Of a stretch of DNA of 64,000 nt, positions 36,490-52,510 are shown in pieces (the stretch's first letter is position 1; the number at the start of each line of letters is the position of its first letter). This stretch comes from Streptomyces clavuligerus (GTDB lineage: Bacteria > Actinomycetota > Actinomycetes > Streptomycetales > Streptomycetaceae), in assembly GCF_005519465.1 (NCBI RefSeq), contig NZ_CP027858.1:2170001-2234000 (forward strand), read 5' to 3'. The notes under the pieces were generated by a model, which worked only from the letters and a program-made list of their open reading frames with translations, ran no database searches and was not told the DNA's origin. The position numbers and the translations under genes were made by a program.

Positions 36490-37275
36490 TCAGCCCGCCA
36501 CCGGGAGCGCACCGAGCAGCACTCCGGCCAGCGCGCCACCGATCATGAACGGGCCGAACGGGATCGCCGTCCTGCGGCCCGCGCGCCCCAGCGCCATCAG
36601 CGCCAACCCGTACAGCGAACCGAACAGGAACCCGGCGAACGCCCCCATGAACAGCGTCCCCCAGCCGTACCAGCCCAGCACGACCCCGAGGGAGAGCGCG
36701 AGCTTCACATCCCCGAACCCCATACCGCCCGGGTGGATCACGAACAGCGCCAGATAGGCCGCCCCCAGGACCACCCCGCCGAGCAGCGCGCCCGACCAGG
36801 ACCCGGCCGCGCCGGGGAGCCGCGCCGCAGCGCCCAGCAGCACGGCGGCGGCAGCCGCGAGCGGCAGGGTCAGCCGATCCGGCAGCCGGTGCACCCGCCG
36901 GTCGACCACCGCCAGCAGCACCGCGAAAGGGGCCAGCGCCAGCCAGACCGCCAGCTCCGGGCGGCACCCGGTGGCAGCGGCGAGCGCCGCGCAGGCCAGC
37001 GCGGCCACCGGAACGGCGGCGGGCGCACCCCGCCCCGGGCCGCCCGGCCCCACCGGACACAGCGCACAGCGCACCCCACCGAGCCAGCCCCGCACCGACC
37101 CGCCGAACGGATGCCCGTCCGGACAGGTGTCCCGCCACTCCTGCCCCGCCCGGACGGACAACCGGTACGCGGCACGGGGGATGAGCAGCCCGGTGACGGC
37201 TCCCCACAGGGCGGCGACAACGATCAGGGCGGGGTACACGGCGACGAGCGTAAGGGGCGGACCCAAGGCCGTCAT
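36490..37275 (-). CDS. A24-family prepilin peptidase (TadV/CpaA-like)
   Basis: A 261-residue membrane protease for processing Flp-type prepilins. Its two catalytic aspartates are in VVDRRVHRLPDRLTLPL (about residue 138) and in the GFGD motif GGMGFGDVKLALSLG (about 200). The N-terminal cytoplasmic part has CPDGHPFGG and VRCALCP, a four-cysteine-like zinc motif reminiscent of full type IV prepilin peptidases. About seven transmembrane helices. The ATG at 37275 follows AAAAAAGGGGGG. It is separated from the rest of the tad cluster by a repeat-flanked DUF192 gene on the other strand. Confidence 0.9.
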   Translation of the reverse strand: MTALGPPLTLVAVYPALIVVAALWGAVTGLLIPRAAYRLSVRAGQEWRDTCPDGHPFGGSVRGWLGGVRCALCPVGPGGPGRGAPAAVPVAALACAALAAATGCRPELAVWLALAPFAVLLAVVDRRVHRLPDRLTLPLAAAAAVLLGAAARLPGAAGSWSGALLGGVVLGAAYLALFVIHPGGMGFGDVKLALSLGVVLGWYGWGTLFMGAFAGFLFGSLYGLALMALGRAGRRTAIPFGPFMIGGALAGVLLGALPVAG

Positions 37276-37287
37276 CCCCCCCTTTTT

Positions 37288-37722
37288 TGTGGCTCGGTTC
37301 ACCTCCGGGGCGCTGAAGCGTCTGCCGACGGTCGACCGTGCTCGGCCGCTCGTTCCTCACGGCCTGCGCGCGCTCTCCACTTTCGGCACCCGCGGCACCC
37401 CTTCGGCTCACTCGCCGCGGGGTCGAGGCAAACGCCCGGCCCAAGAGGCGGGGGCGCGCTCTCCACTTTCGGCAGCCACACGCCCCGATGGCTCACTCGC
37501 CGCAGAGGCAGGGCAAACGCCCGGCCCAACAGACAGGCGGGCGCTCTCCGCTTTCGGCAGCCACGCGCCCCGATGGCTCACTCGCCCCGGGGGCAGGGCG
37601 AACGCCCGACTCAGGGGCGGGGTGCGGGCCATCGTCCAGCCCGGGAGAGAGGCGGAGGTGCGCCCCTTCGGCCCACTCGCCGCAGGGGCAGGGCAAACAC
37701 CCGGCCCAGGGACGGGGCAGGG
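37288..37722 (+). repeat. left arm of a large inverted repeat with internal tandem units
   Basis: Bases 37324-37428 are a perfect 105-bp inverted match to 38520-38624; flanking parts match less well. Inside are four tandem units of about 83-94 bp, each with a CTCACTCGCC box and a hairpin-like GGGCAAACGCCC core, with cores beginning near 37428, 37511, 37596 and 37691. Confidence 0.9.
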
Positions 37723-40182: not shown

Positions 40183-40935
40183 TCAACTCCCGTCGCCGGA
40201 GCCTTTGGTGGGGAAGGAGACCTCGACCCGCCGGTTCTTCTCGCGGCCTTCCTCGGTGGAGTTGTCGGCGATGGGGAAGTCCTCGCTGTAGCCGCGGACG
40301 ATGTAGGAGACGGTGTGGTCCTCCACCTGGCCGTCCAGCATGGCGTGGACGGCGTCGGCCCGTTTGCGGGAGAGGGTCCGGCCGTGCCGGTAGGAGCCGA
40401 GGTCGTCGGTGAAGCCGAAGACCCGGACCTGTTTCGCCCCGTTCCTGCGGATCTCCTCGGCGATGGCGGCGATCCTGCTGTTGGCACGGGGGTTGAGTTC
40501 GTGGCTGTCCCTGCCGAAGAGGACTTCGGCCTGGAGCGCGAACTTGAGCGAGACGGTGGTCTGCTCCCGGCGTTCCTCGCCGCCCTCGGACTCCACGATG
40601 GAGACGATGTCGAGGACCCGGGGTTCGGCGAGGGTCGCGCCCTCCCGCATCCGCAGCCCGGGGTTGTCGGCGTCGATCTGCGGGAGCGGGGTGGCGGCCT
40701 CCCCGACGGGCGGGAGCGCGGGGTCCTCGACGGGGGGCAGCGCGGGGTCCTCGCCCGGCGGTGGCACCGGGTCGTCGGCCCCGGCCGCCGGGGGCCGCAG
40801 GCCGGGGCCCGCCGCCGTGGCCGCCGTGGCCGCGTGGAGCTGTCCGCCGGTGAGCAGCAGCGCGGCGGCGAGGACGAGGGCCGCCGGCCGCCGCGCGGCG
40901 GGGGCGGCGGGCCGCCGCGCGGTCGTGCCGCCCAT
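40183..40935 (-). CDS. exported OmpA-family peptidoglycan-binding protein
   Basis: A 250-residue protein with a signal peptide (about 1-40, ALVLAAALLLTGG core), a Pro-rich repeat linker (PVEDPALPPVG-like units, about 50-85), and a C-terminal OmpA domain (about 125-245: VLFGRDSHELNPRANSRIA, VFGFTDDLGSYRHGRTLS, REKNRRVEVSF). OmpA domains hold non-covalently to peptidoglycan, so this may anchor the pilus machine or another surface complex to the wall. Its ATG overlaps the upstream lipoprotein stop by one base (TGATG), implying translational coupling. Confidence 0.88.
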   Translation of the reverse strand: MGGTTARRPAAPAARRPAALVLAAALLLTGGQLHAATAATAAGPGLRPPAAGADDPVPPPGEDPALPPVEDPALPPVGEAATPLPQIDADNPGLRMREGATLAEPRVLDIVSIVESEGGEERREQTTVSLKFALQAEVLFGRDSHELNPRANSRIAAIAEEIRRNGAKQVRVFGFTDDLGSYRHGRTLSRKRADAVHAMLDGQVEDHTVSYIVRGYSEDFPIADNSTEEGREKNRRVEVSFPTKGSGDGS

Positions 40936-41558
40936 CAGCCCAGCTCGATCGTGCGGGCGGGCATCAGCGGGATCTGGAGTTCGACGGATGCGGTCTCCGG
41001 CGGCGGCGCGGGGAACTGGGCGAAGAAGTCCGCGCTCTGTCCCGCGCCGAACACCCCGAGCCCGGTGGTGGTCAGCGGGTAGCCCTCGGTGTCCCGCAGC
41101 ACGTAGTAGCGCTTCTTCTCGGTCTTGTCGACGAGGGTCATCCCGGCGAACGACCGCCCGGTCCGCTTGACCTGGCGTTCCTGGCCGTTCCACTGGATGG
41201 GCGGGGGCAGGCGGCGGTCGCTGGTGTTGGTGACCGTGCCGGAGACGGTCAGGAAGCCGCCCTCGTCCCGTTCCGCGCCGGTGATGGTGAACGCGAAGCC
41301 GTCGCTGCCCTCGACCGTGGCCAGCGCCTCGGCGGTGCGTTCGGACGCGTCCGGGCCGTCCCCCTGCGGCTCCGGGGACTGCCCGTCCTGGGCTCCCGCC
41401 CCCGTGGCGGTGGAGACCGCGCCGGGGTTCCGCGCGTCGGGCGCGTCGCCGTCGTCTCCGAAGTCGCCGCCGCACGCCGTCAGGGCGAGTCCCAGCGCGA
41501 CGGCGGCCAGTGCCGCGGTCACCGCCCGGGGGGCGCCGGCTCCGTACCTCTTTCTCAT
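40935..41558 (-). CDS. putative lipoprotein of the tad locus
   Basis: A 207-residue exported lipoprotein. The N-terminal MRKRYGAGAPRAV is followed by a hydrophobic stretch and the lipobox ALTACGGD, with the lipidated Cys near residue 29. An acidic Asp/Gly/Pro-rich spacer follows, then one beta-sandwich-like domain (GFAFTITGAERDEGGFLTVS, GTVTNTSDRRLPPPIQW, YYVLRDTEGYPL) similar in layout to DUF4352-type domains. Function unknown. The ATG at 41558 has AGGAA 8 nt upstream; a GTG immediately before it is possible. It is coupled to the OmpA-family gene. Confidence 0.78.
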   Translation of the reverse strand: MRKRYGAGAPRAVTAALAAVALGLALTACGGDFGDDGDAPDARNPGAVSTATGAGAQDGQSPEPQGDGPDASERTAEALATVEGSDGFAFTITGAERDEGGFLTVSGTVTNTSDRRLPPPIQWNGQERQVKRTGRSFAGMTLVDKTEKKRYYVLRDTEGYPLTTTGLGVFGAGQSADFFAQFPAPPPETASVELQIPLMPARTIELG

Positions 41559-41620
41559 CACTGCTGTTCCTTTGCGTTCGGTCGCGGGTCGGGGGCGGTC
41601 GGGGCCGGTCCCGGTCGGGG

Positions 41621-42292
41621 TCAGTCCCGGTCGAGCCGGACGGTGAAGAGGTCGGCCATCCGGGGCAGCAGGTCGGGCCGTGCCGGGTCCAGCTCGAAGT
41701 CCCGGTCGTCGTCGCAGCGGAGCAGCCCCGGTGTGACCGGCTCCGCGGGCTCTTCCGGCTGCTCCTGGCCCTCGTCCGGGCTCCCGGGGTCCCCCGGGCC
41801 GTCGGGCGGCCCGTCGGGCGGCGGGGGCGAGGCGGTGGCGCCGGGTCGCCCGGCGGAGGGCTCGAAGCCGCAGCGGGGCTCCACCACGGCGGTCGCGGTG
41901 GCGGTGGCGCGGTCGCCGTCGACGCCCGGGAGGAGGGTGTCGCCCATCGCCCGCCGCGACTCGACCCGGACATACGCGCCCCAGCGGCCCTCCGTCGGCG
42001 CGAGGCAGTCCCGCAGGGCCGTGCCGTTGGCGGCGGCGAGCGACTCGGCGGCGGCGTGACCGGCCGCGGCGCAGCCGGGCGCCGACTGCTCCTGGGCGCC
42101 GCCGTCGAAGAAGTCCCGGAGGAAGACGGGGTCGAGGATGTTCTCCGCCAGCAGGTCCTCCAGTCCGTCACGGGACTCCTGGGCGGCGGCGAGTGCCGCG
42201 GCGTCGGCACCGGACTGGGTGCCGTTCCGCTGGGCCCCGGCCTGGCCGACGGCGAAGAAGGCGAGGGCGAGGGCGAGCAGGCCCACGACCAT
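41621..42292 (-). CDS. TadG-like pilus assembly protein (start uncertain)
   Basis: At least 223 residues with an N-terminal transmembrane helix and an extracytoplasmic domain. The in-frame sequence before the ATG at 42292 reads VARPAAGRDAGQAVPLYLA, which is the conserved lead-in of TadG-like proteins, but no ATG, GTG or TTG precedes it. The first in-frame standard start codon is the ATG at 42292, inside the helix and without a ribosome-binding site. The conserved part runs on as GAQRNGTQSGADAAALAAAQE. The second half is Pro/Gly/Glu-rich and then has a CDDDRDFELDPARPDLL end. A non-standard start near the pilin stop (42346-42348) is possible. Confidence 0.75.
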   Translation of the reverse strand: MVVGLLALALAFFAVGQAGAQRNGTQSGADAAALAAAQESRDGLEDLLAENILDPVFLRDFFDGGAQEQSAPGCAAAGHAAAESLAAANGTALRDCLAPTEGRWGAYVRVESRRAMGDTLLPGVDGDRATATATAVVEPRCGFEPSAGRPGATASPPPPDGPPDGPGDPGSPDEGQEQPEEPAEPVTPGLLRCDDDRDFELDPARPDLLPRMADLFTVRLDRD

Positions 42293-42345
42293 GGCGAGAT
42301 AGAGCGGGACCGCCTGCCCGGCGTCCCGCCCGGCGGCCGGGCGGG

Positions 42346-42594
42346 CTACTCGCCGCCACCGCCCGTGTTGAGGATCTCCTGGACCTGGCTGGAGAGACCG
42401 GCCGCGATGTCGTCGGCCACCCCGGAACCCACCAGCGCCGCGATGATCGCCGCCACCAGGACGATGACGCCGACGTACTCGACCGAGTCCTGGCCCTCGT
42501 CGCGGCGGTCCCTCACCGCCCGGACGACGTCCGCCGTCCGCGCCGCGACCAGGCGGCGTGCCGTCTCCACGGCCTTCGACCTCAGCTTCGACAT
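42346..42594 (-). CDS. Flp-family type IVb pilin
   Basis: An 82-residue pilin precursor. A basic leader (MSKLRSKAVETARRLVAART, then VRDRRDEGQ) precedes the hydrophobic assembly helix that begins DSVEYVGVIVLVAAIIAALVG; the Glu five residues into the helix is the invariant Glu of type IVb pilins, with cleavage expected near the helix start. The C terminus is short and Gly-rich (TGGGGE). This would be the structural subunit of the Tad pilus, cut by the prepilin peptidase encoded 5 kb away. GGGGAAGCCC precedes the ATG. Confidence 0.85.
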   Translation of the reverse strand: MSKLRSKAVETARRLVAARTADVVRAVRDRRDEGQDSVEYVGVIVLVAAIIAALVGSGVADDIAAGLSSQVQEILNTGGGGE

Positions 42595-42834
42595 GGGCTT
42601 CCCCTCCGGGGCCGTTCGCGCGGCGTCCGCGCGGCGGTTGCGAGTCCTTGGCGCCGTCCGCCGGGCCCTGCCACCGGCCGGACCGGAGAGCGGCCTGAGC
42701 ACTGTACGCCGGAAAAAACGGCCCTGACATGGGCCCTGGGGCCCAACTCGCCTCGGACGGAGGGGGTAAGGGGCCGCGCGGGCGGCGGTCGGGCGACGGT
42801 CCGGCGGAGGGTCGACGGCCCGTGGGCGGACGGT
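42595..42834 (-). other. intergenic region upstream of the Flp pilin gene
   Basis: 240 bp between the response regulator stop and the pilin start, where a separate pilin promoter would lie. I see no strong -10/-35 pair. Confidence 0.3.
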
Positions 42835-43809
42835 TCATACCGGCCCCGCCTGACTCCGGGCCAGCCGGTGCCACAGGGCGATGGCCTCGCCCCGGCTGCC
42901 CGTGTTCAGCTTGGCGAAGATCCGGTTGATGTGGTTCTTGACGGTCTTCTGGCTGATGAAGCAGGCCGCGGCGATCTCCTGATTGGTCAGGCCCGCGGCG
43001 ATCAGCTCCATCACCTCGGCCTCCCGCCGGCTCAGCTCCCCGAGCACCGTCCCGCCGTGGGTCTCCCGGCGCGCGCCCGCAGACGAATGTCCCACAATCG
43101 CTTGCGAAAGCGAAGGGTGTACGACGTATTCACGGGTTGCCGTATCGGCGTCATCGTCGAGTACAGAGAGGGAACCTGCTTCGATACGACCAGCCGATGG
43201 GAGCCTCCTGTGTGCGGAAGCAGATGAAGCAGCCGACGAGGACGACGAGGACAAGAACGACGGGGACGGCGCGACGGAAGGAGGGGGAGCGGCGGGAGCG
43301 GACGGGCGGCGCGTTCGGCCCCGGGGGGACGGAACGGCCGGGAGCACCCCCGCCGCCGAGGCGGAGAACACCGGGCGTCCGGCGGCGACCTCCCCCACCG
43401 CCGTGATCAGTTGCTCGGCGGTGAACTCACCGTGGACGAGATAGCCCGCCGCGCCCCGGGCGAGGGCGGCGTGGACGGTCTCCGTCTCCCTGCTGTACGT
43501 CAGCATCAGCACCGGGGCGAGCCGCACCAGGTACGGCAGTACGGAGATGCCGTCCGCCCCGGGCATCCGGACGTCGAGCAGCACCACATCGGGGCGGTGC
43601 CGCAGTGTCTCGGCGCAGACCTGGCGGCCGTCGGCGGCCTCGGCGACCACGGCGAGGCCCGGTCGGGTGCCCAGCAGCGCGGTCAGTCCGGCCCGGACGA
43701 CCGGGTTGTCGTCGGCGACGACGATCCGCAGCGGCGCCGGGGCGGTGGCGGGAACGGGAGTGGCGGGGGGCGGCCGGTTCGGCGACGGCTCGTGGACGGG
43801 GTCCGGCAC
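42835..43809 (-). CDS. NarL/LuxR-type response regulator with a long linker
   Basis: A 324-residue response regulator. The receiver domain (about 30-150) has the acidic pair VVADDNPVV, the phosphoryl-acceptor Asp in LLDVRMPGADG and the switch residues LTYS. The HTH is at about 258-318 (LSRREAEVMELIAAGLTNQE, ISQKTVKNHINRIF). Between them lies an unusual linker of about 100 residues, rich in Ser/Ala and encoded by locally lower-GC DNA; NarL proteins normally total about 215 residues. The GTG at 43809 is preferred (GGAGG 8 nt upstream); an ATG at 43863 overlaps the kinase stop as ATGA. It pairs with the adjacent kinase and may control the tad genes. Confidence 0.85.
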   Translation of the reverse strand: MPDPVHEPSPNRPPPATPVPATAPAPLRIVVADDNPVVRAGLTALLGTRPGLAVVAEAADGRQVCAETLRHRPDVVLLDVRMPGADGISVLPYLVRLAPVLMLTYSRETETVHAALARGAAGYLVHGEFTAEQLITAVGEVAAGRPVFSASAAGVLPAVPSPRGRTRRPSAPAAPPPSVAPSPSFLSSSSSSAASSASAHRRLPSAGRIEAGSLSVLDDDADTATREYVVHPSLSQAIVGHSSAGARRETHGGTVLGELSRREAEVMELIAAGLTNQEIAAACFISQKTVKNHINRIFAKLNTGSRGEAIALWHRLARSQAGPV

Positions 43810-45532: not shown

Positions 45533-46420
45533 TCAGCCCCCCAGCACCTCGCCCAGGTCGACCCCGGAGCCGTAGTAGAAGCTCACGACGATGAGGATCA
45601 TCGTCGCGGGCAGCATCACGAGGGTGACCACGAGCGTGGACTTGGGCACCGCGCGGGCCGCCTCCCGGCGGGCGTTCTGGGCGTCGGTGCGGCGCATGTC
45701 GGTGGCGATCTGTATCAGCGTGTCGACGATCGGCGCGCCCAGCTCCTCGCCCTGCTGGAGGGCGGTGACGAACATCGAGACCTGCTCGGAGTCGTTGCGG
45801 CGGCGGAGCTGGTCGAAGGCGTCGCGGCGGCTGACGCCCATGTCCATCTGGCGCAGGGTGATGCGCAGTTCGTCGGACCAGGGGCCCTCGTACTTCTCCG
45901 CGACCCGTTCGAGCGCCTGCCGGAAGCCGAGCCCGGCGGAGACCACGACGGCGAGGACGTCCAGGAAGTCGGGGAGGGTGCGCTCGATGTCGGCGCGCCG
46001 CCGCCGGATGGCCACCCGGATGATCACATCGGTCCAGAAGAGGCCGAAGACCAGCAGGAAGGCGGCGAGCGCGAGCTGTCCGCGCAGCAGCATGGAGAAC
46101 GCCGCCACCAGGCCGAGGAGGCTGTAGACGGCGCGGCGGGCGGCGTAGCGGTCGACGGTCATGCCGCCGGGGTTCCCGGCCATGTCGAGGCGTCGGCGCA
46201 GCGCGTCGACCCGGCCGGGTCCCATGGCGCGCAGCACGGCGGGGGCCCAGCGGACCCCGAGCCGGTCGATGACCGAGCCGACGGCGGTGGTGCGGGTGGC
46301 GCCCACTTCGAGGGCGAGCGCCAGATCGCCGGGGAGCCGGGCGTCGGAGCGGTACATCCGCACCCCGAGGAAGATCCCGTAGACGGAGAAGGCGAGCAGT
46401 GTCGCGAGCAGTGGTCCCAT
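45533..46420 (-). CDS. tadC: type II secretion F-family protein TadC
   Basis: A 295-residue inner-membrane platform protein of the Tad pilus. An N-terminal helix (MGPLLATLLAFSVYGIF) is followed by a cytoplasmic domain, paired helices near 90-130, then the T2SSF domain (TLPDFLDVLAVVVSAGLGFR, ALERVAEKYEGPWSDELRI, LQQGEELGAPIVDTLIQIA) and a terminal helix with a short tail. With TadB it forms the membrane base on which the TadA ATPase drives pilin assembly. GAGGAGGGCCGG precedes the ATG. It sits 10 nt after tadB. Confidence 0.9.
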   Translation of the reverse strand: MGPLLATLLAFSVYGIFLGVRMYRSDARLPGDLALALEVGATRTTAVGSVIDRLGVRWAPAVLRAMGPGRVDALRRRLDMAGNPGGMTVDRYAARRAVYSLLGLVAAFSMLLRGQLALAAFLLVFGLFWTDVIIRVAIRRRRADIERTLPDFLDVLAVVVSAGLGFRQALERVAEKYEGPWSDELRITLRQMDMGVSRRDAFDQLRRRNDSEQVSMFVTALQQGEELGAPIVDTLIQIATDMRRTDAQNARREAARAVPKSTLVVTLVMLPATMILIVVSFYYGSGVDLGEVLGG

Positions 46421-46430
46421 CCGGCCCTCC

Positions 46431-47372
46431 TCAGACCTGGATCCGGGAGAGTCTGCGGATCAGGAACGCGCCGAGTCCGTAGAGGCCGAAGGCGGCGAGG
46501 GTGGCGCCCTGGCCCACCACCGAGCCGGTCATCCGGTCCAGGGCGCCCGGCGTCATCCCGTTGATCATCAGCAGGAAGCCGAGGCCGAGCAGGGGCACCG
46601 CGAGGGCGGTGACCTTGATCTGGGAGAGCGTGGTGGTGACCTCCCGGCGGGTCTCCTTGCGCTCCTCCAGGGACTGGGTGAGGTTGCGCAGCGAGGTGAC
46701 GACCTGTCCGCCCGCCCGGTTGGCGAGGATCAGGGTGGTGACGAGGACGATCAGCTCCCGGGAGGGGAGCCGTTCGGCGAGGGTGCCGAGCGCGTCGTCC
46801 AGGCTCTGGCCGACGGCGAGCTGATCGGCGACGATGCCGAGTTCGTGCCCGGCGGGGTCGTCCAGTTCCTCGGCGGCCATGGCGAGCGCGGTGCGCAGCG
46901 AGAGTCCGGCCTGGGTGGCGTTGGCGAGGACCCGGGTCAGCTCGGGGAGCTGGGCGATGAACGCCTCGGTGCGTTTGACGCGCTGCCATTCGAGGAAGTT
47001 GCGGGCGCCCCAGAGGGCGACGAGGGCGGCCAGGACCCCGAAGAAGGGGGCGAAGACCGCGCCGACGGCGAGATGGGTGACGAGCAGCAGGACGAGGACG
47101 GCGACGGTGTACTCGCCGCAGGTGAGGTCGAGTCCGGTGGCGGCGATCCGGTGCTCGACCTCCCGGCCGTAGCGGGTGGTGCGCAGCCGCCGGTCGAGGG
47201 CGTGGAAGCGGCGGCGGCGGCCCGTGCGGGCGGGCGGTTCCCCGGTCTGGGCCATCCGGGCGACGAGGGCGTCGCGCTGGGCCCTGCCCGCGGCGTAGGT
47301 GTGCACGCCGAGGACGCCGATGGCACCGGCGAGCAGGGTGGCTCCGGCCGTCAGAAGCGGGAGGTTGTCCAT
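46431..47372 (-). CDS. tadB: type II secretion F-family protein TadB
   Basis: A 313-residue membrane protein partnering TadC. It has an N-terminal helix (about 6-24), a basic cytoplasmic region (GRRRRFHALDRRLRT), a helix pair near 85-125, a T2SSF domain (AQLPELTRVLANATQAGLSL, LGTLAERLPSRELIVLVTTL, GGQVVTSLRNLTQSLEERKE) and terminal helices. Gene order TadA-TadB-TadC in transcription direction is the standard core. The Shine-Dalgarno is weak (GAAGAAGG 13 nt upstream), suggesting dependence on upstream translation. Confidence 0.9.
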   Translation of the reverse strand: MDNLPLLTAGATLLAGAIGVLGVHTYAAGRAQRDALVARMAQTGEPPARTGRRRRFHALDRRLRTTRYGREVEHRIAATGLDLTCGEYTVAVLVLLLVTHLAVGAVFAPFFGVLAALVALWGARNFLEWQRVKRTEAFIAQLPELTRVLANATQAGLSLRTALAMAAEELDDPAGHELGIVADQLAVGQSLDDALGTLAERLPSRELIVLVTTLILANRAGGQVVTSLRNLTQSLEERKETRREVTTTLSQIKVTALAVPLLGLGFLLMINGMTPGALDRMTGSVVGQGATLAAFGLYGLGAFLIRRLSRIQV

Positions 47373-47433: not shown

Positions 47434-48774
47434 TCAGGCGAGGGTGCCGCGGACGGCGAGGTGGTCGTCGGACTCGGCGACCCCGAAGGCCGGGGGCAGC
47501 GACTCGTTCTTCAGGTAGAGGCGTTCGGCGACCCGGCGCGGTACGGGGTAGTAGACGAACTGCCCGTGCACCCGGCCGTCGGAGTCCATCGGCCGGGCGT
47601 GGAAGCGGCAGACGGAGACGATGCGGTACTCCTCCCGTCCGGTGGAGTCGACCACCGCGACCTCGGTGACCCGGCGGGAGCCGTCGGCGTGCCGGGTGAG
47701 CTGGACGATCACATCCACGGCGCTGTTGATCTGGTCCTTGATCGCCGCGAAGGGGATCTCGACCTCGGACATGGAGGCCAGGGTCTGGAGCCGCATCAGG
47801 GCGTCCTCGGCGCTGTTGGCGTGGACGGTGGCCAGCGAGCCGTCGTGGCCGGTGGACATGGCCTGGAGCATGTCCAGGGTCTCCCCGCCGCGGACCTCGC
47901 CGACGATGACGCGGTCGGGGCGCATGCGCAGCGAGTTGCGGACGAGGTCGCGGATGGTGACATGGCCCTTGCCCTCCACGTTCGGCGGGCGGCTCTCCAG
48001 GGTGATCACATGGGACTGCTGGAGCCGCAGCTCGGCGGAGTCCTCGATGGTGACGATCCGCTCCTCCTCGGGGATCAGTCCGGAGAGGGCGTTGAGGAGG
48101 GTGGTCTTCCCGGTGCCGGTGGCCCCGGAGACGATGACGTTGAACTTGGCCCGGACCAGGCCCGCGAGCAGCAGGGTGAGCTGCTCGTCGAGCGAGCCGA
48201 CGGCGATCATCTCCTGGAGGGTGAACGCGCGGGGGAAGCGGCGGATGGTGAGGATGGGGCCGCTGAGCGAGAGCGGGGGGATGATCACATTGACGCGTTC
48301 GCCGGAGGGGAGCCGGGCGTCGACCATCGGATTGGCCTCGTCCACCCGGCGGTTGACGGTGGAGACGATGCGTTCGATGGTCTGCATGAGCTGCTCGGTG
48401 GAGGAGAAGCGCAGCGGCAGCAGCTCCAGCCTGCCGCCCCGTTCCACATAGACCTGTTCGGGGCCGTTGACCATGATCTCGCTGATGGAGGCGTCTTCGA
48501 GCAGGGGTTCCAGGATGCCGAGCCCCAGGGCCTCGTCGACCACCCGGCGGATGAGCTGGGAGCGTTCGACGGTGGAGAGGACGGGGCCCTCGCGGCTGAT
48601 GATGTGGCCGAGGACCCGCTCCAGCCGGGCCCGGCGCTCGGCGGCGGCGAGCGCGGACATCTCGGCCAGGTCGATCTCTTCGAGGAGTTTGGCGCGGTAG
48701 ACGACGACGAGGCGGTTCTCCTCGCTGAAGCCGTTGACCGGCTCGGGGCTGCTGATGCGCGCCCGCAGGCTCAT
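47434..48774 (-). CDS. cpaF: Tad pilus assembly ATPase TadA/CpaF
   Basis: A 446-residue secretion ATPase of the VirB11/GspE superfamily. The N-terminal domain (EIDLAEMSALAAAERRARLE) leads to DASISEIMVNGPEQVYVER, RLPSGERVNVIIPPLSL, Walker A GATGTGKTTLLNALSG (about 236), the Asp box RIVTIEDSAELRLQ, Walker B DRVIVGEVRGGETLDML and the His box MSTGHDGSLATVHANSA. It powers pilus extension and perhaps retraction in the cytoplasm. The ATG at 48774 follows GGGAGATGAGGAC. Confidence 0.94.
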   Translation of the reverse strand: MSLRARISSPEPVNGFSEENRLVVVYRAKLLEEIDLAEMSALAAAERRARLERVLGHIISREGPVLSTVERSQLIRRVVDEALGLGILEPLLEDASISEIMVNGPEQVYVERGGRLELLPLRFSSTEQLMQTIERIVSTVNRRVDEANPMVDARLPSGERVNVIIPPLSLSGPILTIRRFPRAFTLQEMIAVGSLDEQLTLLLAGLVRAKFNVIVSGATGTGKTTLLNALSGLIPEEERIVTIEDSAELRLQQSHVITLESRPPNVEGKGHVTIRDLVRNSLRMRPDRVIVGEVRGGETLDMLQAMSTGHDGSLATVHANSAEDALMRLQTLASMSEVEIPFAAIKDQINSAVDVIVQLTRHADGSRRVTEVAVVDSTGREEYRIVSVCRFHARPMDSDGRVHGQFVYYPVPRRVAERLYLKNESLPPAFGVAESDDHLAVRGTLA

Positions 48775-48956
48775 GTCCTCATCTCCCTGGCGGTACGGGG
48801 TCGTGTCGGTCGGTCGGGCGGCCCGGGCGGCGGTGTGTCCGGGGGCCCGGTGCCTCCGGTGTCTCCGGTGGCGGGAGCTCTGGGGTCCCGGGGGCCGCCG
48901 GGGTCGCCGGGGTCCGTGTGCCCGCGCCGCGCGGCCGGGCGCGGGGCCGGGCCGGG

Positions 48957-50021
48957 TCAGTCGCAGGGCATGGTGACCCTCCGCTCGGCGGGGTCGAACG
49001 CGAACACGGGCAGCAGGGCCGGGACCCGGACGGTGACGGTCGCGGTGACGTCCTCGCCGGGCTGGACGGAGACGTCGGCGTCGTCGAGCCAGCCGCTCAG
49101 GGCCTCGTACCCGGCCTCGCGGCCCGGCGCCGGGTCGCAGTCCTCCTGGGCGGCGGTACGGGCCGCCGCGCGGGCGGCGGTGCCCGCCTGCTGGGCGGTG
49201 TAGGCGACCACGCCGAGCTGGATCGCGGCGACGGCGACGAACAGCAGCAGGGCGAGCACCCCGGCGTACTCGACGGCGGCCTGACCACGCTGGCGGTCCT
49301 GGCGCTCCCGGGCGCCCCGGCCATGGCGATCCCCGTGGTCGGAACCGTGCTCCCCGGAGCCCCGACCGTGGCAGTCGTGACGGCCATGACAATCCTGCCC
49401 GCCGCCCCGACCATGGCAATCCCCGCGGTCGGAACCGTGCTCCCGGGAGCCCCGGTCGTGGCAGTACCGGCAGTCGGGGCCGTGGTGCCGGTCGTGCCGG
49501 TCACCGTGGCCTTCCTGCCGTTCACGCCCGTGCCGGTCGTGCCGGTCACCGTCACCCCGGCCGTGGCAGTCGTGACGGTCCACACGGCCCTCCCGGGCGC
49601 CGCGGGCATGGCGATCCCGGCGGTCGGAGCCGTGCTCCCGGGAGCCGTGGCAGTCGTGACGGCGGTGGCGGTCCTGCCCGTCGCCCTGGCCGTGGCAGTC
49701 GGGGCAGTCCTGCCGGTCACCCCGGTCACGGCGATCCTGGCGGTCGGGGCCGTGCTCCAGATCGCCCCGGCCGTGACCGTCCCGGCAGCCGGGGCAGTCC
49801 TGCCGGTCACCCCGGTCGTGGCAGTACCGGCAGTCGGGGCCGTGGTGCCGGTCGTGCCCGTCACCGTGGCCTTCCTGCCGTTCACGCCCGTGCCGGTCGT
49901 GCCGGTCACCGTCGCCCCAGCCGTGGCGCTCGGGGCAGCCGTGGCGGTCCTGACCGTCCTGGTCGGCGCCCCGGCCCCGCCCGCCGTGCGGAGCGGACCG
50001 GCCGGGCTCCCACCGCGTCAC
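48957..50021 (-). CDS. TadE-like pseudopilin with a 245-residue His/Asp/Cys-rich repetitive N-terminal extension
   Basis: A 354-residue protein. Residues 246-354 are an ordinary TadE-like unit: RGQAAVEYAGVLALLLFVAV membrane helix, helical stalk and a small C-terminal domain ending RRVTMPCD. Residues 1-245 are hydrophilic and repetitive; I count 35 His and 14 Cys, with many Asp, Arg and Gly. A segment around RHDRHGRERQEGHGD followed by HDRHHGPDCRYCHDRG is duplicated exactly 120 residues apart (36-70 and 156-190). CxxC pairs occur at 64/67, 76/79, 106/109 and 184/187. The start is the GTG of a GTGA overlap with the upstream gene, so translation through the repeats is well supported. The extension would face the cytoplasm and looks metal-binding (inference). 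Confidence 0.8.
   Translation of the reverse strand: MTRWEPGRSAPHGGRGRGADQDGQDRHGCPERHGWGDGDRHDRHGRERQEGHGDGHDRHHGPDCRYCHDRGDRQDCPGCRDGHGRGDLEHGPDRQDRRDRGDRQDCPDCHGQGDGQDRHRRHDCHGSREHGSDRRDRHARGAREGRVDRHDCHGRGDGDRHDRHGRERQEGHGDRHDRHHGPDCRYCHDRGSREHGSDRGDCHGRGGGQDCHGRHDCHGRGSGEHGSDHGDRHGRGARERQDRQRGQAAVEYAGVLALLLFVAVAAIQLGVVAYTAQQAGTAARAAARTAAQEDCDPAPGREAGYEALSGWLDDADVSVQPGEDVTATVTVRVPALLPVFAFDPAERRVTMPCD
49451..49553. repeat. 103-bp direct repeat, copy 1
   Basis: Matches 49811-49913 with one mismatch by eye; the copies are exactly 360 bp (120 codons) apart, so the duplication keeps the reading frame. Confidence 0.9.
49811..49913. repeat. 103-bp direct repeat, copy 2
   Basis: Partner of 49451-49553; see that entry. 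It encodes residues about 37-70 of the TadE-like protein. Confidence 0.9.
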
Positions 50022-50545
50022 GACGGGTCCTCGGCGGTCGCGGCGGCCTCGGCCGGTACCTCGAAGGGGAAGTTCACCGCGCCCGGGAAGAGCACCGGCA
50101 CGGAGACCCGGACCGAGACCCGGTACAGCCCCTCACCGCCCGGCGGCGGGCAGTCGGCCGCGGCGTCCCACGCCCCGGGCAGGTCCTCCCGCAGCGCCTC
50201 CCGGCAGGCGGCGGGCCCGCCGACGGCGCCCGCGCGGGCGGCCTTGTCGGCCGCGTTCCCCGCGAGGGAGAAGGTGTAGCCGATCAGGGCGGCCTGCCAG
50301 AGCAGCGCCAGCGTGACCAGGATGACCGGGAGGGTGCCGGTGAACTCGACGGCGGCCTGGCCGCTGTCGTCCCCGGCGCGCGGCAGCCGGGGACGGGACC
50401 CGCCGGAGGGCCGGCCGGGCGGGCGCGTCGCGGCACACCGGGCGTCCACCGGGGGCCGGGGGCGCCGCCCGTGCCGCGAGCCGTGCCGTACGCGAGACCC
50501 CGTCACTCCCCGCACCCCTTCGCCTCCCGGTCCTGCCACCGTCAT
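50018..50545 (-). CDS. TadE-like pseudopilin
   Basis: A 175-residue protein with a basic Arg/Pro/Gly-rich N terminus (about 1-60), a single membrane helix beginning SGQAAVEFTGTLPVILVTLA, and an extracytoplasmic domain (RVSVRVSVPVLFPGA) with two cysteines (PAACREAL and DCPPPGG). TadE-like pseudopilins are thought to initiate or regulate Flp pilus assembly. Its ATG overlaps the upstream CpaE-like stop (ATGA) and its stop overlaps the next gene's GTG (GTGA), so it is coupled on both sides. Confidence 0.85.
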   Translation of the reverse strand: MTVAGPGGEGVRGVTGSRVRHGSRHGRRPRPPVDARCAATRPPGRPSGGSRPRLPRAGDDSGQAAVEFTGTLPVILVTLALLWQAALIGYTFSLAGNAADKAARAGAVGGPAACREALREDLPGAWDAAADCPPPGGEGLYRVSVRVSVPVLFPGAVNFPFEVPAEAAATAEDPS

Positions 50546-51789
50546 CTCGACCGTGCCCGCCGGACCCGGATCGAACCCCGGTCGCCCCGGAATCTGCTCT
50601 GCTTCTGCTCGCCCTCCACGGCCTTGACGAGGCCGAGTTCGCCCGCGAGCCCCCACAGGGCCGTCTTCACGGTCGACTTGGCCTCCAGGTCCTGCATCCG
50701 TCCGGCGTCGACCACCGGCTGGAGCTCCTTGAAGGCGGCGGGCACGGAGGTCCGGGCCACCCGGGTGCCGGTGATCTTCTCGATCAGCGGGGGCTGGATC
50801 TCGGTGCCCCGGGTGTAGCGGTTGACGACGGCGACGGTCTCCTCCGCCTTGCGGATCTGGAGCCGGTCCCAGAGCCGGACCATCCGCTTCGCGCCCCGGA
50901 CGGCGACCACGTCCGGTGTGGTCACCAGCAGGGTGATGTCGGCCATCTCGATCGCGGCGGCGTTGGCGTTGTGCATCTGGGTGCCGCAGTCGACGACGAC
51001 GACCTCGTAGCGGTTGCGCAGGGCGCTGACGATCTGCCGCACGGCCCGGTCGTCGACCTCCTCGCCGCGCTCCCCCTCCCCCGGCGCGAGCAGCAGCCCC
51101 ATCCCGGTCTGGTGCGCGAACAGGGCGTCCTGGAGCACCCGGGGGCCGATGTCCTGGATACCGGCGAGGTCGGCGACGGAGCGGCGGAACTGGACATCGA
51201 GGTACGAGGCCACGTCCCCGGCCTGGAGGTCGAGATCGGCCAGGGCGACGGTGCGCCCCGACGCCTGGGCGGCGAGCGCGAGCTGGACGGCGGTGACGGT
51301 GGTGCCCACGCCGCCCTTGGCCCCGCTGACGGTGACGACGGTGCCGCCGGGGCCGGTGAACACGTCGCCGCTGTGGCCGAGGTGCCGCCGCACCCCGGTG
51401 GACCAGCCCGCCGCCGCCTGGACCCGCTGGGCGAGTTCCTCGTACGACAGGGGCAGGGCGACCAGTCCGCGCGCGCCCGAGTCCATGGCGGCGGAGTAGA
51501 GGCCCGGACCGGCGTCGACGGTGACCAGGACGACCCCGACGGCGGGGAAGCGGAGCGCCACTTCCCGGATCAGTTCGAGGGCGGGGACGGGGCCGATCCG
51601 CTCATGGACGAGGACCACTTCGGGCAGTTCGTCGAGGGAGTCGGCGGCGAGCCGGGCCAGCGTGTCGAGGAGCGCGGTCGAGTCGCCCACGGGGGCGGCG
51701 GGCTCCGCGTCGGGAAGCTGGCTGAGCAGGGTGGTGATGGACCGGACGGCGTCGGGGTCCCCGACGGCCGGGAGAATGCGTGTGCTCAT
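50542..51789 (-). CDS. CpaE/TadZ-like MinD-family ATPase
   Basis: A 415-residue cytoplasmic protein. The N-terminal atypical receiver-like domain (about 1-125: VVLVHERIGPVPALEL, GARGLVALPLSYEEL) is followed by a ParA/MinD ATPase domain (about 150-400) with the deviant Walker A SGAKGGVGTTVTAVQLA, ADLDLQAGDVASYLDV and VVVDCGTQMHN. The Walker A has Thr-Thr after the Gly and keeps the signature Lys at KGG. CpaE/TadZ proteins place the pilus machine in the cell. GTGAGGGCGGC precedes the ATG at 51789. Confidence 0.9.
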   Translation of the reverse strand: MSTRILPAVGDPDAVRSITTLLSQLPDAEPAAPVGDSTALLDTLARLAADSLDELPEVVLVHERIGPVPALELIREVALRFPAVGVVLVTVDAGPGLYSAAMDSGARGLVALPLSYEELAQRVQAAAGWSTGVRRHLGHSGDVFTGPGGTVVTVSGAKGGVGTTVTAVQLALAAQASGRTVALADLDLQAGDVASYLDVQFRRSVADLAGIQDIGPRVLQDALFAHQTGMGLLLAPGEGERGEEVDDRAVRQIVSALRNRYEVVVVDCGTQMHNANAAAIEMADITLLVTTPDVVAVRGAKRMVRLWDRLQIRKAEETVAVVNRYTRGTEIQPPLIEKITGTRVARTSVPAAFKELQPVVDAGRMQDLEAKSTVKTALWGLAGELGLVKAVEGEQKQSRFRGDRGSIRVRRARSR

Positions 51790-51796
51790 GCCGCCC

Positions 51797-52510
51797 TCAC
51801 CTGCTCCTGTCTTCGTCAAGGGTGTAGGTGCTGTCGCCGGGGCGCAATGTGGACGGGCTCCCCTTGGCGAGAAGGGCGAGCCGCACATGTTCGGCGAACG
51901 ACTCCGCGTGGGCGACACGCTGGGCGTCCTTGGTGCCGAGGGCGAAGGTGATCGGGACGGCCTCGCGCATCCGGCTGCGGCGGTCGTCCCTGCGGGGGTC
52001 GAGCGGGGTGAGCCGGCCCACGTCGATGACCTTGGCGTTGGTGACGATGATCCGGGACTGGTCGGGGTCGCCCTCCGCCTTTCCGGCGAAGGTGGCGAAG
52101 ATGTTGACCAGGTCCCCGGGGGTGATCTTCCCGGCGACCCCGGTCGCCGCGTCGATCATGATGGCGATCTCCTGTTCCCCGGGCGCCAGTTCGGGCCGCT
52201 TGACGATCATGTCGTCCTGGAGCAGCGAGCCCTTGCGCAGCTCGGTGACGGCGATCTTCCCCCGGACCGTCGAGAGATCGGTGACGGCGGTCCGGGGGAG
52301 CCAGCGGCGCGGCACCGCGACCTTCTCGAACTGCCCCGGGCGCAGGGCGGTGTAGGGGGCGACGTCCGAGGCGAGCCGGTAGGCGGTCGCCTCGGGGCCC
52401 ACCTTGGAGTTCACATCGTTGATCACCGATATCACGCCGGCGAACGCGCCGAGGGCGCACAGCACGGAGACGATCAGAAGGATGACGCCGCGTCGTTGGC
52501 GTGAATTCAT
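51797..52510 (-). CDS. cpaB: Flp pilus assembly protein CpaB/RcpC-like (SAF domain)
   Basis: A 237-residue membrane-anchored protein with an N-terminal helix (VILLIVSVLCALGAFAGVIS, about 9-28), a SAF domain (about 45-105: YTALRPGQFEKVAVPRRWLP, GKIAVTELRKGSLLQDDMI) and a CpaB domain (IAIMIDAATGVAGKITPGDLVNIFATF, RIIVTNAKVIDVG). It probably contacts the cell wall outside the membrane during Flp assembly. It is 7 nt upstream of the CpaE-like gene. Confidence 0.88.
   Translation of the reverse strand: MNSRQRRGVILLIVSVLCALGAFAGVISVINDVNSKVGPEATAYRLASDVAPYTALRPGQFEKVAVPRRWLPRTAVTDLSTVRGKIAVTELRKGSLLQDDMIVKRPELAPGEQEIAIMIDAATGVAGKITPGDLVNIFATFAGKAEGDPDQSRIIVTNAKVIDVGRLTPLDPRRDDRRSRMREAVPITFALGTKDAQRVAHAESFAEHVRLALLAKGSPSTLRPGDSTYTLDEDRSR

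Follow-up and report, generated by a model that had tools for sequence, protein, structure and literature searches.

The first 246 residues of a 354-residue TadE-like protein of Streptomyces clavuligerus are most simply read as a leader peptide that would be cut on the cytoplasmic side of the membrane, leaving a minor pseudopilin of 108 residues. This N-terminal head is very probably the n-region of the class III signal peptide of a minor pseudopilin (TadE type) and has been enlarged by duplication of repeats in frame. It is best read as a giant member of a group of hypervariable, repeat-expanded prepilin leaders. The gene, here called tadE-like gene 2, and the other features of the window (the whole stretch of 64,000 nucleotides that was analysed) are collected in Table 1.

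Table 1. Features of the tad region, in positions of the window.
Feature	Position	Strand	Remarks
A24 prepilin peptidase (TadV/PilD type)	36490..37302	-	53.4 and 51.2 bits; sole above-cut-off A24 match in the genome
TadC-like platform protein	45533..46420	-	PF00482 78.6 bits, PF19359 212.9 bits
TadB-like platform protein	46431..47372	-	PF00482 67.1 bits
TadA-like secretion ATPase	47434..48774	-	PF00437 256 bits; start chosen by the authors
tadE-like gene 2, minor pseudopilin precursor	48957..50021	-	354 aa; PF07811
Predicted mature pseudopilin, 108 aa from Q247, with stop codon	48957..49283	-	Long helix, then small beta sheet
Prepilin-peptidase site G246/QAAVEY252	49266..49286	-	Motif beside the core in 136/136 listed loci
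Leader peptide region, residues 1-246	49284..50021	-	Arg/Gly/Asp/His/Cys repeats, predicted disordered
45-nt tandem array	49304..49454	-	3.4 copies, 64% matches
38-codon duplicated segment, copy 2 (codons 153-190)	49452..49565	-	3 nt differences from copy 1
Other in-frame start codon of the head, GTG, codon 147	49581..49583	-	GGGAGG upstream
45-nt tandem array	49694..49853	-	3.6 copies, 73% matches
38-codon duplicated segment, copy 1 (codons 33-70)	49812..49925	-	
GTGA, GTG start overlapping the upstream stop	50018..50021	-	From the layout and from genus-wide starts at or near the upstream stop
tadE-like gene 1, from probable ATG (ATGA overlap with tadZ stop)	50018..50545	-	Own leader 62 aa
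TadZ/CpaE-like ATPase gene	50542..51918	-	Longest ORF, true start may lie further in; named by P-loop-like sequence and position
RcpC/CpaB-like	51797..52510	-	PF16976 75.3 bits

The core of the protein was recognised by the Pfam TadE model (PF07811) at residues 246–288, with 32.1 bits against a cut-off of 22.9, in agreement with the TadE-like pseudopilin unit named in a preliminary description of this DNA. It also aligns to positions 1–85 of the 101 of TadE_Rv3655c (NF041390), but at 23.6 bits falls under that family's cut-off of 40 and is not filed there. The head ends in RQRG and the core begins with QAAVEYAG, which makes an exact G/xxxxE site (the slash marks the cleavage position) with Gly at −1, Glu at +5 and a hydrophobic helix next (RQRG/QAAVEYAGVLALLLF), the layout described for class III signal peptides (PMC4471445, PMC10191384). 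In single-sequence AlphaFold2 models, blocks of ten residues had pLDDT values of 34–49 up to residue 230, with values mostly under 50 up to about residue 225, followed by a helix at 235–292 and a small beta sheet. Since the mean pLDDT was 52.2, only the broad pattern is used, and by this prediction the head is probably disordered and the core a long helix plus strands.

Prepilin leaders end in Gly and are removed on the cytoplasmic side by a prepilin peptidase (PMC4471445, PMC10191384). Those of type IV prepilins are given as 6–26 residues long, or about 15–30 in T4b (PMC4471445), and their length is described as variable, with very long leaders in the major pilins of Streptococcus sanguinis (PMC10191384). 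The window leader shares with class III signal peptides its hydrophilicity (GRAVY −2.29), a positive charge beside the membrane (net +3 over the last 12 residues), the terminal Gly and the Glu at +5. It differs in that the net charge of the whole is near-neutral, and its 246 residues lie beyond the reviewed range of 6–26, which describes known cases and does not define the class; leaders of up to 411 residues are found in Streptomyces TadE.

Of 392 genomes from the genus, 390 contain the TadE core. The comparison covered 136 loci, a non-random draw made up of the window's own locus and of 29, 26 and 80 of the best core matches listed. The site G/xxxxE followed by F, Y or L stands beside the core in all 136 loci; because the motif demands G and E, this means that every locus matched and is not independent invariance. 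A Gly at +8, which the motif does not demand, is found in 134 of 134 listed loci. Since the head exactly abuts this prepilin-peptidase site, and the site was found in every locus examined, the likeliest reading is that the head is a leader and is cut off, and not the domain of a mature component that the preliminary description had made of it.

The gene lies in a tad cluster, surrounded by matches to PF00437, PF00482 (two) and PF16976 and by a second TadE gene. With the TadE minor pseudopilins of Tad/Flp (T4c) pili (PF07811) it shares a TadE domain above cut-off, the prepilin site and a cluster of RcpC-, TadZ-, TadE-, TadA-, TadB- and TadC-like genes; it differs in its 246-residue leader with repeats, listed Streptomyces orthologues having a median of 20.5 residues. 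An OmpA-family ORF (PF00691) and a TadG-like ORF (PF13400), which overlap as called and whose true starts are uncertain, occupy 40183–42874 (−) and so separate the A24 peptidase gene from the tad genes. The ORF of tadE-like gene 1 extends over 50018–50656 (−). Its leaders vary too, from the 62 residues of the window up to 151 in locus L101, and are at least 50 residues long in 14 of 107 loci (L101, L141, L040 and L094 were noted). Leader length in tadE-like gene 1 showed no correlation with that in gene 2 (Spearman 0.06, P 0.56; 107 of the 136 loci).

The genome also encodes the enzyme that would be needed for cleavage. The A24 peptidase gene lies about 12 kb from tadE-like gene 2, and a second A24 match elsewhere in the genome, at 15.2 bits, is far under the cut-off. 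The protein has the aspartate motifs VVDRR and GFGDVK, which we take to hold the catalytic Asp. TadE and TadF are reportedly pseudopilins whose maturation needs TadV (Tomich et al. 2006). An A24 peptidase was found in 80 of 81 Streptomyces genomes searched and shared a contig with tadE in 25 of 37 genomes (G000–G036), at a distance of less than 20 kb in 15 of these 25 and of more than 50 kb in the other 10. TadV is the prepilin peptidase of Tad systems (PMC10191384).

No Flp_Fap pilin (PF04964) was matched in the genome at E up to 1, so the TadE-like proteins could themselves be structural subunits, as has been suggested for some Gram-positive tad operons that lack Flp (PMC3244431). This possibility would leave the reading of the leader unchanged. 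A second pilin-like locus, at about 3766516–3767412 of C1, matches DUF4244 with 75.7 bits and the TadE domain with 31.2 bits.

GTG 50021, which the preliminary description had fixed as the start of the gene by the GTGA overlap, is still the most probable start. This GTG opens 354 residues, shares nucleotides with the stop codon of the TadE-like gene before it and has a GAGG 7 nt upstream; the overlap suggests translational coupling between the two genes. The stretch from the upstream stop to the core offers just two start codons in frame, GTG 50021 and, further in, GTG 49583, so that no ATG, GTG or TTG is found in frame near the membrane helix, where initiation would have done away with the head.

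Translation mainly from the internal GTG, which is unlikely, would shorten the leader to 100 residues and leave its fate unaltered. The GGGAGG ahead of that codon speaks for it, but GTG 50021 likewise has its GAGG, and the first 146 codons share frame and repeats with the rest of the head. Moreover, the start lies between −10 and +6 nt of the upstream TadE stop in the 133 orthologous loci counted, although the rule applied, which takes the first start codon from −10 to +30 nt of that stop, favours such positions. Leader statistics were drawn from 134 loci, without L058 (no start, contig end) and L096 (start at −17); L006, which has no upstream gene in view, was kept among the 134, and its start position was left out of the 133.

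The preliminary description expected the repeats to be translated, and they probably are. Across the head tract there is no stop in the coding frame, against 1 and 10 in the remaining sense frames. By itself, an open frame is weak evidence of translation, because two antisense frames lack stops as well. One of these, 48918–50279 (+), has 453 residues and is rich in Val and Pro across the repeat tract; codon composition most likely accounts for this frame. G+C at the three codon positions is 0.89/0.57/0.85 in the head and 0.81/0.53/0.99 in the core. The tract behaves as a single translated frame because all 178 repeated pairs of 12-mers in its DNA (178/178) are spaced by multiples of 3. The two copies of the 38-codon segment stand 120 codons apart. 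In five ungapped comparisons between repeat copies, few in number and mutually overlapping, the differences were spread over codon positions 1, 2 and 3; one comparison of 30 codons had 6, 5 and 6 at the three positions, and of its codon differences 3 were synonymous and 10 non-synonymous. Because of this spread, the exact residues of the head do not look conserved.

The survey of orthologues, which the preliminary description had called for, gave an answer in two parts. A long extension is not typical, since the 134 listed leaders have a median length of 20.5 residues, but long leaders recur: the range is 8–411, and 29 leaders are at least 50, 9 at least 100 and 5 at least 200 residues long. 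The window leader ranks fourth. Among the listed loci, the six cores nearest to that of the window (58–62% identical) have leaders of 11–21 residues, and the seventh and eighth have leaders of 69 and 122. The repeats of different genomes have little resemblance to each other (GTGTGT, RDRGRDRG, YKPHGP, PRLPRL, RTATRTA, GHGRPT, RWRGRAATGVGAG). GRAVY is below 0 in all 134 listed leaders, and the last 12 residues are net positive in 132 and zero in 2; the net charge of the whole window leader, −1, is the only negative one among them, with one other at 0. Judged from these sequences, the leaders have hardly more in common than their hydrophilicity, a positive charge next to the membrane and the cleavage site.

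Leader length changes quickly by comparison with the core. In three pairs with identical aligned cores, the leaders measure 204 and 411 residues (L077/L080), 118 and 97 (L121/L122) and 20 and 12 (L138/L139). A pair with 97% identical cores has leaders of 72 and 304 residues, and another, with 96% identical cores, 50 and 14. On a tree of the core, built from only 109 columns and 134 rows and with many unresolved forks, the long state (at least 50 residues) requires 19 changes, at least 7 of them forced by starred branches; shuffled labels required 26.4 on average. Not every expansion is independent, because the long leaders are thus partly clustered.

The manner of growth is similar elsewhere. 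At least 3 repeated 12-mer pairs were present in 28 of 48 other leaders of at least 30 residues, and in 27 of these 28 multiples of 3 were the commonest spacing class, the exception being L077 (6 vs 7). The period of the best tandem array was divisible by 3 in 37 of 45 leaders and not in 8; taking all tandem arrays found, it was so in 136 of 222 and not in 86. On the sequences compared, the leaders grow by largely in-frame repeats, and the repeats that expanded at this position in other lineages are of quite another kind. Four loci (L080, L087, L086 and L077) have Ala/Gly/Arg-rich leaders of 411, 304, 271 and 204 residues on mature TadE proteins that are 93–100% identical in aligned columns; these leaders exceed or come close to the window head in size. 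In L085 the residues just before the cleavage site, RDRG, are themselves repeated, a pattern that multiple copying of the recognition end would produce.

These observations can be joined into a proposed pathway. Translation would begin at GTG 50021, presumably coupled to that of the upstream TadE-like gene. The hydrophilic leader would be held in the cytoplasm by the positive stretch RERQDRQRG, and the hydrophobic helix behind it would insert into the membrane, as expected from pilin biology; the cytoplasmic location given to the head in the preliminary description is kept in this form. The A24 peptidase would then cleave after G246, freeing the leader and a pseudopilin beginning QAAVEY, and the mature protein would enter Tad pilus assembly. 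Among Streptomyces lineages the length state would have shifted many times, with different repeats each time. Such a leader may tolerate runaway in-frame repeat growth because it is discarded, needing only hydrophilicity, juxtamembrane positive charge and a cleavable Gly. We infer that it is dispensable.

If the leader were instead retained, the head would be a charged cytoplasmic tether between the pseudopilin and the base of the pilus, as the preliminary description had also considered. The size of the leader may hinder the peptidase, and its charge pattern could conceivably bind TadA, TadB or TadZ. Both the prepilin site and the peptidase are present, though, and neither length nor composition is conserved, not even between species with the same aligned mature sequence. 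Minor pilins are described as functional only when processed (PMC12075869). A retained tether is accordingly improbable.

The preliminary description saw in the head a possible domain for binding zinc, nickel or copper, and its account of the composition holds, apart from a length of 245 residues where 246 are counted here. The head contains R52, G52, D41, H35 and C14, few hydrophobic residues, and four CxxC pairs, beginning at residues 64, 76, 106 and 184; three of these fit CxxCH, and one, CPDCHGQG, fits CxxCxGxG. Compared with composition shuffles, which take no account of the repeats, there are 4 CxxC against a mean of 0.72 (P 0.004), 3 CxxCH against 0.10 (P 0.0001) and 1 CxxCxGxG against 0.03 (P 0.03). 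Two of the four pairs, both CxxCH, are copies within one duplicated 38-codon segment, which the shuffles do not reproduce, and the excess is therefore partly a matter of repeat structure. The His+Cys fraction of the window leader, 0.20, is also the highest among the 134 listed leaders. CxxC, on the other hand, is found in 1 of these 134, that of the window itself, and Cys and Arg alternate at similar places of the repeats (DCHG/DRHG). A conserved metal site is unlikely because the pairs are private to this genome and the repeat copies differ about equally at codon positions 1, 2 and 3. The leaders of two relatives, S. albipurpureus and S. jumonjinensis, measured from the nearest ATG and not by the upstream stop, have 11 and 12 residues. 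These two came from a separate set of four loci, of which a Myxococcus locus was left out, as was S. shenzhenensis, for which the last in-frame starts shown are GTG/TTG only and the leader may be long.

DnaJ-type zinc fingers have four repeated CxxCxGxG motifs; the head shares with them the single string CPDCHGQG. At E up to 1, neither Pfam nor NCBIfam gave a match of the protein to a DnaJ zinc-finger family. With residues 1–245 as the query, none of 7,981 scored candidates, those sharing most words and measuring 0.55–1.75 times the query length, gave a match, in a search where the composition correction of HMMER may hide low-complexity matches. A search with the whole protein returned 12 matches covering 29–38% of the query, all with the TadE domain; their leaders differ in composition from that of the window, and their length is partly an effect of the length filter. 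In the genome, a second copy of the tract was sought at the DNA level, and the 40 candidates scored, out of 398 from a first pass, gave only 3 short partial matches of 32–75 bp apart from the tract itself. On the orthologue survey, the comparison of repeat copies and the empty search with residues 1–245, a metal-binding domain was set aside as the main reading. That the head is a functional Zn-, Ni- or Cu-binding module, either before cleavage or as a released peptide, is very improbable, and its richness in His and Cys is best read as what the particular repeat of this lineage encodes.

To take the tract for a spacer without coding function, or for an error of sequencing or assembly, as its GC-rich, low-complexity repeats and the two stop-free antisense frames might suggest, is hardly credible, since the frame is held across 738 nt and all the repeat pairs, comparable or larger leaders are present in other genomes, and a start codon is absent near the membrane helix.

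No report of long or repeat-expanded TadE leaders in Streptomyces was found by title or opening of the abstract. What stands out in the expanded-leader reading is the range of sizes and the speed of change, set against the 6–26 residues given in the review consulted. It is conceivable, though improbable, that so large a leader performs a function in its own right. The 246-residue His/Cys/Asp/Arg peptide might act as a cytosolic metal buffer or sensor before or after cleavage, or its length might time the processing of the pseudopilin, making pilus priming dependent on metal state; more broadly, Streptomyces might tune Tad pilus assembly through fast-changing leader length.

Prepilin leaders are usually pictured as short tags. 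Here, across a single genus, they measure 8–411 residues on a conserved mature protein, and a leader can double in length without change in the aligned mature part. For annotators this is a warning that such leaders are not to be read as metal-binding domains. For the biology of Tad pili, the Streptomyces leaders offer a case of in-frame repeat growth in a probably discarded segment of a protein, and a natural length series for how large a leader the prepilin peptidase and the membrane-insertion route would accept.
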